Below are positions 19,808 through 22,285 of a stretch of DNA of 64,000 nucleotides, one piece after another (the stretch's first letter is position 1; every line of letters starts with the position of its first letter). Made by a program: the position numbers and the translations under genes. The notes beneath the pieces are model-generated. The model saw only the letters and a program-made list of their open reading frames with translations. It made no database searches and was not told where the DNA came from. The DNA is taken from contig JAQZBP010000001.1 in assembly GCA_029237815.1 (NCBI GenBank), forward strand, positions 124,001 to 188,000, read 5' to 3'. This DNA comes from Moraxellaceae bacterium. Its GTDB lineage: Bacteria; Pseudomonadota; Gammaproteobacteria; Pseudomonadales; Moraxellaceae.

Positions 19808-19857
19808 TGGCGCCCACGAGACGATTCGAACGTCCGACCTGCCCCTTAGGAGGGAGC
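19808..19857 (-). pseudogene. Displaced 3' half of a tRNA-Arg(CCU): attL of the mobile element
   Basis: The minus-strand sequence matches the 3' half of tRNA-Arg: anticodon arm CTCCTAA, a complete T-arm (GGACG-TTCGAAT-CGTCT), the acceptor 3' strand CGTGGGC, and GCCA. There is no 5' half. It shares the 17-bp core 19838-19854 exactly with the intact tRNA (22239-22255). Its T-stem differs by compensated changes, so it is a real tRNA remnant. This is the layout left when an element integrates into the anticodon arm and replaces the 3' half. Confidence 0.88.
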
Positions 19858-19993: not shown

Positions 19994-20014
19994 CAGTGTG
20001 GCAAAAGTGTGGCA
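19994..20014 (+). repeat. Left arm-type repeat of the element
   Basis: CAGTGTGGCAAAAGTGTGGCA, a tandem of two GTGTGGCA units spaced by AAAA. It is identical and in the same orientation as 22139-22159. An inverted TGCCACA lies nearby at 19939-19945. Position about 140 bp from the attL core fits integrase arm-binding sites. Confidence 0.8.
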
Positions 20015-20034: not shown

Positions 20035-20056
20035 AAAAAAAATCCGCTTACGCGGA
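20035..20056 (-). terminator. Intrinsic terminator of the three-gene cassette
   Basis: On the minus strand the stem TCCGC/GCGGA with a GTAA loop is followed by eight T residues. The TAA stop codon of the HEPN-like gene lies in the loop, so the terminator overlaps the end of the coding region and insulates the cassette from the flank. Confidence 0.85.
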
Positions 20057-20446
20057 CTTCTTTTTCTCTAAAGTTTCTAGCACTTCATCTGCACTTGCTA
20101 ACGCATCCTTTGCCTCCCTCAAGCTAAGGCGCGTGTCTGTCTGATAGTCGGCCTTTCTACGCAACGACTTCAAATCCATTAACAACCCAGCAATCGTCTT
20201 TGAGTCTGCCTCTGCACGATTTTCATAATATTTTATAACTGCCTGATGGCTTTCACGATCATCCCGGCGGGTAGCCAACCCTGAAAACTCGCGAGCTCGA
20301 AGCCAAGCACCGTAGTAAGCACGGCTAATTGCAGCCCTTAATGCAGCCTGAGTTGAGAACCTCGAGCCTTTAGGTGGCTCATACTTACCATGAGCATCAA
20401 CCAGGCTGTGAGCCAATCCCACATATTCGTCGGGATTGAATTGCAT
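20048..20446 (-). CDS. HEPN-like small protein (third gene of the cassette)
   Basis: 132 aa, all-helical. It carries SRAYYGAW (residues 41-48) and RRKADY (96-101), a pair typical of HEPN-fold proteins, which include many RNase toxins. Arg60/Arg61 followed by His67 (RX5-6H) could be the HEPN catalytic motif, though it is not the most canonical spacing. Lys/Glu-rich tail. It starts at an ATG three bases after the previous gene's stop. Whether it is an active RNase, an antitoxin-like partner or a structural HEPN is not decided by the sequence. Codon use is A/T-richer than the host genes. Confidence 0.6.
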   Translation of the reverse strand: MQFNPDEYVGLAHSLVDAHGKYEPPKGSRFSTQAALRAAISRAYYGAWLRAREFSGLATRRDDRESHQAVIKYYENRAEADSKTIAGLLMDLKSLRRKADYQTDTRLSLREAKDALASADEVLETLEKKKSA

Positions 20447-20449
20447 GCT

Positions 20450-20962
20450 TTAAGCCACCCTAAGAGCCAGCTTATGGCTGTGATCTTTGGCAACACCGTA
20501 AAGCCACTCGTTAATCAGCTTTTTGCGGGCCGCCAACCGGTCCTTTGCGTCTTCTATATCTGTGTTGACCACCAGATAAACACGCTCAAAGTCATCCTCG
20601 ACATCTTTATAATGCTCGAGCTCAAGCGAAGCCCTAAAGCCCAAGAGGTCAGAAATTGCTACGGGAGCGTCAAGCAGCAGCCTAGAGAATGCATGACTGT
20701 CCTCCATAAGCCTCACCACCTCTTCAAGTTCCTCAACATCATTGAAGCGAGCCATCAGCGCAGCCTTCAGCTCATCATGAGGCGTTCCGGGAACCGGCCA
20801 GACGGGCAGACCGGAGAGCTCGTAGTGATACTCACTACACTCCATAAAATATTCGGCGCGGGCACCACGATTGGAAATGAGGCTGGCGCTCTCAGGCAGC
20901 CGAGTGGCCGGCGCCAAAGCGAAGCTGGTAACGATCAACGTCCCAGTAATCGGATCAACCAT
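20450..20962 (-). CDS. Unrecognised protein (second gene of the cassette)
   Basis: 170 aa; I do not recognise the family. It begins MVDPITGTLIVTSFALAPAT, with a possible beta-hairpin core, then an acidic, probably helical middle (ELEEVVRLMEDSH, about residues 77-89) and a C-terminal helical stretch with many charges. There is no signal peptide or clear membrane segment. It has a good ribosome site (AAGGGGTGAG) 11 bases after the first gene's stop and is followed after three bases by the HEPN-like gene. The tight spacing suggests co-expression and perhaps a complex. Confidence 0.75.
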   Translation of the reverse strand: MVDPITGTLIVTSFALAPATRLPESASLISNRGARAEYFMECSEYHYELSGLPVWPVPGTPHDELKAALMARFNDVEELEEVVRLMEDSHAFSRLLLDAPVAISDLLGFRASLELEHYKDVEDDFERVYLVVNTDIEDAKDRLAARKKLINEWLYGVAKDHSHKLALRVA

Positions 20963-20973
20963 TTCTCACCCCT

Positions 20974-21804
20974 TTATGACTCAAGAAGAATCGCTTCTCT
21001 AATTTCCTTAGCAATCAACCTGATCATATATTTTTTATTTTGAAGATGGAGCAACTGCATATTTTGAGAAATATTTTCAACGGTTACTTCTTCAGGCGAA
21101 TCAAAATCGAGCCGGTGATTCATCTGGATCGATATCAAATGCCCCAGCCCAGGCTCAACGCTTTCCTTTGGCTTAACCACAATATTTATATTGGTCAGAA
21201 TCCTTCCAGGAATGCCCTCAGGCTTCTCAAAGAAGCCAGAATAGCTGTGCCAAGCATTGGGACAGTGCTCATCAATAACTTTGGGATACAGTCCGCTTTC
21301 TTTTGCGAAGAGTTCAGAAATCCAAGACATCTGCTCGTCATAGTCCGCTTCAAAAAGATCCTCGAACTGAAGCAGCATGCCCTTCAGAGAGATGTCTCGC
21401 TTTTGAAGCAGCGGCACAACGTTTTGTACTACTCGCTCTACCGTAGGCCAGGTCTCGCTCCAGCGGGTGTACTTTGTCGTTGCGTAGTGAATGTGCTCAG
21501 GATGTAGATGCAGCTCCCGAATGCTATTCCCTGCCTCATCAAACCCTTCCATGACGAATCCGACCTTATCGGTCGATTCTGTTTGGCCAATGCCATTCGG
21601 GCTGATCTGCACTGCCGCTCGCAAGATGTCTCGGACAGCAGTAAACCTCTCCTTGAGGATCTCATCCTTGTCTCGCTGGGCCCTAATAAGCTCAAGCACA
21701 TCCCTATTGAGCATGTCCGGGCGGGAGGGAAGGAACACAAAGGATGCTTTCTGGACGGCGTGAGGCGCTCCGTGCGCGTTAACAGGCCGAACATACTTTG
21801 CCAA
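20974..21804 (-). CDS. TIGR04255-like protein (first gene of the cassette)
   Basis: 276 aa with a TTG start at 21804 preceded by AAGGGGG. The overall plan matches the sporadically distributed TIGR04255 family: an early FVFLPSRP strand, a TTKYTRWSETWPTV segment (about 109-122) where family members have a T..Y..W pattern, then LLQFEDLFEA (about 144-153) at the position of the usual LQYIDRF-like motif, and a C-terminal helix. The family's function is unknown. It is first in the operon, just downstream of a 13-bp inverted repeat. Confidence 0.6.
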   Translation of the reverse strand: MAKYVRPVNAHGAPHAVQKASFVFLPSRPDMLNRDVLELIRAQRDKDEILKERFTAVRDILRAAVQISPNGIGQTESTDKVGFVMEGFDEAGNSIRELHLHPEHIHYATTKYTRWSETWPTVERVVQNVVPLLQKRDISLKGMLLQFEDLFEADYDEQMSWISELFAKESGLYPKVIDEHCPNAWHSYSGFFEKPEGIPGRILTNINIVVKPKESVEPGLGHLISIQMNHRLDFDSPEEVTVENISQNMQLLHLQNKKYMIRLIAKEIREAILLES

Positions 21805-21850
21805 GACAACCCCCTTCTTCAGGCATAGGTGGGTTTGAGTGGGCGCAGTA

Positions 21851-21881
21851 TACGTATCTGCCCCCGTAGGGCAAATACGTA
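21851..21881. promoter_or_regulatory. Inverted repeat upstream of the cassette (operator candidate)
   Basis: TACGTATCTGCCC - CCGTA - GGGCAAATACGTA, arms matching at 12 of 13 positions, centred about 60 bp upstream of the TIGR04255-like start codon. It is too far from a gene end to be a terminator and has no T tract. A dimeric repressor site, possibly for autoregulation by the cassette, is the simplest reading. Confidence 0.6.
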
Positions 21882-22138
21882 TTAACCGCTACTAGATACC
21901 TTATATCGTAATCAGCCTAGGTTAGAAAATTTCTTGAAGCTCTAGGGCTTACGAGAAGCCGCTCAAAATTTAACCGCCCTCTGCCATTGTTGAGCTTAAG
22001 CCCATCATTGACCTGCCCCTCCCGAAGAGGATGCTCTAATCGCCAGACCTCTTGGGAACGAAGAATCAATGACTTACGCGCGGAAAACAGGCCCAAAATC
22101 GCCCCATTTTTGGGGTGTGCCACGCTTCGATTTGCCGG
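21882..22138. other. Non-coding part of the element
   Basis: A/T-rich interval between the operator-like repeat and the right arm. It contains a CCCCATTTTTGGGG hairpin at 22102-22115. A 68-codon minus-strand frame (21917-22123) resembles nothing known and has no convincing ribosome site. No gene is called. Confidence 0.5.
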
Positions 22139-22159
22139 CAGTGTGGCAAAAGTGTGGCA
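22139..22159 (+). repeat. Right arm-type repeat of the element
   Basis: CAGTGTGGCAAAAGTGTGGCA, identical to 19994-20014, 80 bp from the core inside the intact tRNA gene. In the excised circle the two copies would flank the core as P and P' arms. Confidence 0.8.
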
Positions 22160-22208: not shown

Positions 22209-22285
22209 TGGCGCCCACGAGTGGATTTGAACCACCGGCCTGCCCCTTAGGAGGGGGCTGCTCTATCCAGCTGAGCTACGTGGGC
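22209..22285 (-). tRNA. tRNA-Arg (anticodon CCU)
   Basis: 77-nt cloverleaf with encoded CCA. Acceptor GCCCACG/CGTGGGC, D-stem GCTC/GAGC, anticodon stem GCCCC/GGGGC with loop CTCCTAA, and T-stem GGTGG/CCACT with loop TTCAAAT all pair. It serves as attR: its 3' half, from the core 22239-22255 to 22209, was probably supplied by the element, while the older 3' half now lies at 19808-19857. Confidence 0.97.

Follow-up and report, generated by a model that had tools for sequence, protein, structure and literature searches.

Within the window, a stretch of 64,000 nucleotides from a Moraxellaceae genome, a 2.4-kb islet of low G+C content lies at a tRNA-Arg(CCT) gene (22209–22285, minus strand). The G+C content of the islet block is 48%, against 65–69% in its flanks. 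Its cargo consists of only three co-directional genes, all on the minus strand: gene 1 (20974–21804; 276 aa, TTG start), gene 2 (20450–20962; 170 aa) and gene 3 (20048–20446; 132 aa), separated by gaps of 11 bp and 3 bp. Upstream of gene 1, an inverted repeat with 14-nt arms, ATACGTATCTGCCC-N5-GGGCAAATACGTAT (21850–21882), overlaps a promoter-like (sigma-70-like) site (21847–21874, minus strand) and is a possible operator. A terminator-like hairpin, TCCGCGTAAGCGGA followed by T8 (20036–20056, minus strand), stands at the end of gene 3; its stem was listed for the plus strand, and the minus-strand reading was made from the sequence. An earlier note on this DNA had described three tightly spaced genes at 20048–21804, with their own terminator and upstream inverted repeat, as the sole cargo of a mobile element. 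The open reading frames and both signals were found as described, and the mobile element is borne out by the G+C shift, att copies, direct repeats and empty sites in congeners.

The tRNA-Arg(CCT) gene is the integration site. The distal att copy (19808–19857, minus strand) is a 50-nt sequence 86% identical to the 3′ half of this tRNA and represents the original chromosomal 3′ half of the tRNA gene. One copy of an exact 21-nt direct repeat, CAGTGTGGCAAAAGTGTGGCA, lies inside each islet end, at 19994–20014 (distal) and 22139–22159 (tRNA-proximal), both on the plus strand, and resembles an integrase arm site. No integrase or recombinase was found between the islet ends. Among the same-genus loci read, six congeners (G001, G002 and G004–G007) have empty sites, carrying a single copy of the core, CCTCCTAAGGGGCAGG, without an insert, and this comparison confirms the islet as an insertion of foreign DNA at the tRNA gene. 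In G002 and G004, the 3′ half of the tRNA is that of the window's distal copy and not that of the intact window tRNA, indicating that recombination took place at the core in the anticodon region and that the 3′ half now in the intact tRNA gene came with the element.

In the seventh congener, the Moraxellaceae MAG G003 (JAUSND010000003; locus L009), the same tRNA site is filled by a different islet. This islet has perfect att copies and its own inner repeat pair, and again contains three genes only. The trio has the same gene order as that in the window, with protein identities of 27–29% (28% for gene 2). Identity this low, between islets of one genus at a single site, favours independent arrival of the two over shared descent.

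A helper integrase was sought in the window's genome. Four integrases are encoded there, all of them elsewhere and none near or linked to the islet; two are XerC/D-like, one lies beside tRNA-Lys and one has no tRNA nearby in the locus read. One of them adjoins tRNA-Lys(TTT) and a replication-initiator-like protein (L115; G000:C2, about position 182400), in an element that looks filamentous-phage-like by eye. The arm-like repeat has only one further match in the window's genome, with two mismatches. Among 98 relatives it was detected in one other genome, as a single one-mismatch copy. This near-copy, TGTGGCAAAATTGTGGCA (L105; G035:C6:484502–484519), is in another genus, about 90 bp from a tRNA-Thr gene, and is possibly a trace of a related element. 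In G438, a more distant genome, an att-flanked island of 6.4 kb at tRNA-Arg(CCT) (L129, 2411–8820) contains a tyrosine integrase, an AlpA-like gene, a TIGR04255 module and an acyltransferase-like gene. This suggests a possible route by which integrase-less islets could arise from integrase-bearing islands.

The assignments of the earlier note for the three genes (TIGR04255-like, unknown and HEPN-like) were upheld by the searches. Gene 1 matches NCBIfam TIGR04255 with an E value of 2.3e-5 and 24.3 bits, under the curated cut-off of 30 bits. The profile of its subfamily also matches TIGR04255 loci, and the protein groups with TIGR04255 proteins in the clustering of the module table. On this evidence, gene 1 is a homologous but divergent member of TIGR04255. 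No sequence relative with a solved structure was found, DNA-pattern scans of viral contigs recovered no gene 1 relatives, and tblastn against plasmids and phages gave no match. AlphaFold models gene 1 (pLDDT 84.3, pTM 0.82) as two beta-alpha-beta-sheet-alpha halves. AdoMetDC prozyme, TBP, guanidino kinases and viral TBP-like proteins head the Foldseek/VIA lists, and TBP-type duplicated folds dominate the matches in both the PDB and BFVD, with TM-scores of about 0.25–0.41 and Z of at most 8.5 that indicate a common arrangement only. We take the predicted fold to be a duplication of TBP-like or helix-grip-like type and assign no function from it. SecB, the identity expected by analogy with toxin-antitoxin-chaperone (TAC) systems, was considered and not adopted: gene 1 has no Pfam match, and SecB is absent from these lists, an absence that is not proof.

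Gene 2 has no match in Pfam, NCBIfam or PADLOC and no strong match in PHROGs. The structure modelling proposed in the earlier note, which gave a good model for gene 1, yielded a low-confidence model here, with a mean pLDDT of 44 and about 30 for residues 1–60, too poor for a fold search. Past residue 60, the model is weakly structured, with helices and a beta-beta-alpha element, and the N-terminus (about residues 1–60) is probably disordered. Across the family, the N-termini of gene 2 proteins are charge-poor (0.18 versus 0.26, p about 2e-5 and 2e-6), and low charge is the one robust feature of this segment. A strongly hydrophobic N-terminus, which is seen in many gene 2 proteins, was rejected as a general feature after a paired test against the C-terminus (p 0.11).

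Gene 3 matches Pfam PF05168 with an E value of 3e-3 and 18.1 bits, below the gathering score of 22 bits, which its relatives at L020 and L021 clear with 27 bits. It also matches phrog_5176 (E value of 5e-11), and its family profile matches the HEPN structure 9xbd in the PDB (E value of 2e-10). PADLOC returned weak generic HEPN matches only. The canonical Rx4-6H motif is absent from gene 3. Instead, R..DY is present together with a conserved H elsewhere, and R37, Y44, Y45, H67, R96, D100 and Y101 are invariant in 22 of 22 relatives. In HEPN-T proteins (PF05168), D replaces the H of Rx4-6H and a conserved H is found elsewhere (Anantharaman et al.; PMC3710099), and the set R96, D100, Y101 and H67 agrees with this description. 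Gene 3 is, by these residues, an HEPN-T protein with the HEPN-T positions intact. The same source notes that toxicity can persist in HEPNs lacking the canonical motif, and that some HEPNs are non-catalytic (PMC3710099).

HEPN-T genes also occur with other upstream genes. In viral contigs (L055, L056, L058–L062, L066, L068, L071, L072 and L074), a TPR-like protein of about 255 aa is encoded directly upstream of HEPN-T, and this pair recurs among the tail and structural genes of many temperate phages. It looks like a two-gene phage-borne module. By eye, the phage TPR proteins and gene 2 seemed homologous in their C-terminal parts, but hhalign gave no support for this, and the gene 1–gene 2 arrangement is thus not always required by HEPN-T. 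On a Gloeothece plasmid, a 119-aa gene lies upstream of HEPN-T, forming a gene 2 and HEPN pair without gene 1. The Klebsiella plasmid p187-3 (L022; 3353 bp) carries as its main cargo (1577–2766) a 263-aa protein without an assigned family, upstream of HEPN-T.

A survey of TIGR04255 was performed across 398 phylum-wide genomes, of which 29 encode the family; none of 14 well-known control genomes does. Thirty loci from this survey were read, and 41 modules were tabulated in all. In 26 of the 30 loci, gene 1 is directly followed by a gene 2 in the same orientation, and the third gene is complete in 23 of these 26; the remaining four loci are cut by contig ends or unclear. Forty of the 41 gene 1 proteins fall into one homology cluster. 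The gene 3 proteins form 12 phmmer clusters (HADI, 12 members; HEPN, 7; SNTCD, 5; the T154/T171 group, 4; HACT, 3; the rest singletons) and represent at least 10 unrelated families. Apart from HEPN and MazF, the gene 3 representatives that were scanned have no significant Pfam match. The HEPN modules are those in the window and at L009, L013, L020, L045, L054 and L067. They are divergent; one is on a Thermus plasmid and two are in viral contigs, these two having been reached through HEPN searches and not through gene 1. The conserved co-occurrence on which the earlier proposal depended was thus found, with the HEPN trio recurring in seven divergent modules. The survey also went past that proposal, as gene 1 heads many three-gene modules with varied gene 2–gene 3 pairs.

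The gene 2 clusters follow the gene 3 clusters in the 41-module table. A WDGxGA-type motif is present in 16 gene 2 proteins, which are paired with the HADI family and its near relatives, and an HTH-looking segment, recognised by eye, is present in four that are paired with HACT. One module (L029, 1483–2858) combines TIGR04255 with a 95-aa gene 2 and a PemK/MazF gene 3 (PF02452, E value of 1.1e-18; a singleton cluster), making it the clearest toxin-bearing module. On the gene 1 tree, the gene 3 label changes three times for HEPN (at least two forced), six times for HADI (at least four forced) and twice for SNTCD, and the MazF module falls inside an SNTCD clade. With a single gene 1 family, these changes require that the gene 2–gene 3 pair was exchanged several times while gene 1 was kept; by this phylogenetic evidence, gene 1 is the constant partner of interchangeable pairs. 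The gene 3 proteins at L025 and L026 have H..W and GLTCATF motifs and are possibly papain-like or NlpC-type cysteine enzymes; that at L026 was scanned and has no Pfam match.

Several of these modules are in mobile locations. Modules close behind the 3′ end of a tRNA gene were identified at tRNA-Ser (L014/L135), tRNA-Arg(CCG) (L025/L130), tRNA-Ala (L031/L131), tRNA-Arg(CCT) (L048/L129) and tRNA-Met (L051/L133). Such positions account for 4 of 30 sampled loci, compared with about 0.1 expected (P about 1e-6 to 1e-5 under a crude null). In viral contigs, one module adjoins an S24-type phage repressor (L054) and another is near a terminase gene (L067). A phage capsid gene adjoins the module at L006, and a Tn554-like tnpABC trio adjoins that at L017; the L020 module sits on a Thermus plasmid, with VapBC on one side and cas6 on the other. 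A scan for defence neighbours returned isolated matches, Cas6 next to the L020 module among them; it had no control set, and no island enrichment is claimed. A role in phage defence is plausible from the prophage and mobile-element locations.

We lean, by a modest measure, towards reading the islet module as a tripartite system of the toxin-antitoxin (TA) type, with an HEPN toxin, gene 2 as the antitoxin and the TIGR04255 protein as a shared stabiliser or sensor. Gene 3 would be an RNase-type toxin of the HEPN-T family, and the C-terminal part of gene 2 would bind or neutralise it. The poorly structured N-terminal part of gene 2 would make the antitoxin dependent on gene 1. Gene 1, with its TBP-like fold and its presence in many modules, would stabilise the antitoxin and probably double as a sensor. 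If gene 1 were titrated or lost, for example through a phage product or loss of the islet, gene 2 would fail or be degraded and the HEPN protein would block growth. The earlier note had proposed that genes 1 and 2 sense or restrain and that the HEPN protein acts; these roles stand by analogy, through the MazF/PemK gene 3, the tracking of gene 3 by gene 2 and the constancy of gene 1. The tripartite reading draws on these same observations and on the 26 of 30 abutting loci, the antitoxin-before-toxin order, the palindrome over the promoter-like site, the mobile locations and the TAC precedent. It also draws on the invariance of the HEPN-T residues and on the charge-poor, unstructured gene 2 N-terminus, low charge being what reliance on a partner protein would lead one to expect. 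Against it stand the lack of a SecB match for gene 1, the lack of a canonical Rx4-6H in the HEPN protein, some gene 3 families without a recognisable toxin fold, the outcome of the hydrophobicity test, the low-confidence gene 2 model and the phage TPR and HEPN pairs.

Occurrence as the only genes of small tRNA islets, and next to repressor or terminase genes in viral contigs, would also suit an abortive-infection complex. The trio would then stand ready without a labile antitoxin or addiction, and gene 1, alone or with gene 2, would recognise a phage product and switch the HEPN protein on allosterically. Gene 2 changes with the effector as an adaptor might, and a retron-associated HEPN (36ht in the PDB) is a weak match to the gene 3 family profile. 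We consider this complex unlikely, as gene 2 is small, partly unstructured and antitoxin-like, MazF/PemK is a classical TA toxin, and genes 1 and 2 match no known defence family. The dominance of TBP-type folds among the gene 1 matches raises another alternative, in which gene 1 is a DNA-binding autoregulator at the palindrome and genes 2 and 3 are an ordinary TA pair. The overlap of the palindrome with the promoter-like site and the Gloeothece pair without gene 1 are consistent with this. Yet the structural scores reflect only a common arrangement, the HTH-looking sequence in gene 2 of other modules means that gene 1 need not regulate, and inspection by eye did not reveal the palindrome upstream of the G003 module; we regard autoregulation as quite improbable. 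The missing canonical motif and the existence of non-catalytic HEPNs could finally be explained by a non-toxic RNA-binding or RNA-processing complex with a regulatory or metabolic role, in which the HEPN protein binds RNA non-catalytically. The invariant R, H, R, D and Y of gene 3 argue against this, and the patchy, mobile and fast-diverging distribution and the MazF exchange fit conflict systems rather than housekeeping, leaving it very unlikely.

The tripartite reading can be extended to the whole family, tentatively and with confidence somewhat short of even. TIGR04255 would be an unrecognised, non-SecB addiction partner, a TBP-like platform that licenses unrelated antitoxin-toxin pairs and senses phage, and the third genes would comprise several undescribed toxin families on tRNA islets and prophages. 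A new class of partner, defined by gene 1, is a real possibility. This gives a first testable role to TIGR04255, a widespread but sporadic family without an assigned function, and several unnamed gene 3 families become toxin candidates by association.

The earlier note had suggested an undescribed system. No PADLOC family or model matches gene 1 or gene 2, and a literature search, with subscription papers, preprints and later databases outside its scope, found no paper using TIGR04255 or its InterPro/NCBI names; tripartite TA and defence modules as a kind are already known. As an element, the islet resembles CIMEs and integrase-less tRNA islets in being att-flanked, lacking a recombinase and having empty sites in relatives, and the G438 island at this tRNA (L129), which does have an integrase, holds related cargo. 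It differs in its very small size (2.4 kb) and in having the module as sole cargo. The module shares with HEPN/MNT (HepT/MntA) systems an HEPN toxin of the HEPN-T family (PF05168) encoded last, but the MNT nucleotidyltransferase antitoxin is missing, and gene 2, which has no Pfam match, is unrelated to MNT. Module L029 resembles MazEF/PemIK in its PemK/MazF third gene and short second gene, whereas the TIGR04255 module has an extra first gene and an added N-terminal segment in gene 2.

The closest likeness in organisation is to TAC systems such as CmdTAC, three-gene modules in which the third protein stays constant while the toxins are interchangeable, and in which the antitoxin contains a disordered segment; CmdTAC is phage-linked (PMC11618068, PMC5105189). 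The CmdTAC antitoxin depends on the chaperone, which is titrated away by phage capsid protein (PMC11618068). The TIGR04255 modules share with TAC the combination of changing toxin/antitoxin pairs and a third component that is conserved. The third protein is SecB-like in TAC; here it is TIGR04255, of about 260 aa with a predicted duplicated TBP-like fold. In gene 2 the segment modelled as unstructured lies at the N-terminus, whereas the TAC antitoxin has a C-terminal chaperone-addiction domain, and the genes here run from partner through antitoxin to toxin, opposite to the T-A-C naming. A chaperone-like role of gene 1, which matches SecB neither by sequence nor in the structure lists, is proposed by analogy, and the module may work like TAC without being identified as TAC. 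If gene 1 is a non-SecB partner for antitoxins, the principle behind toxin-antitoxin-chaperone systems would extend beyond SecB.
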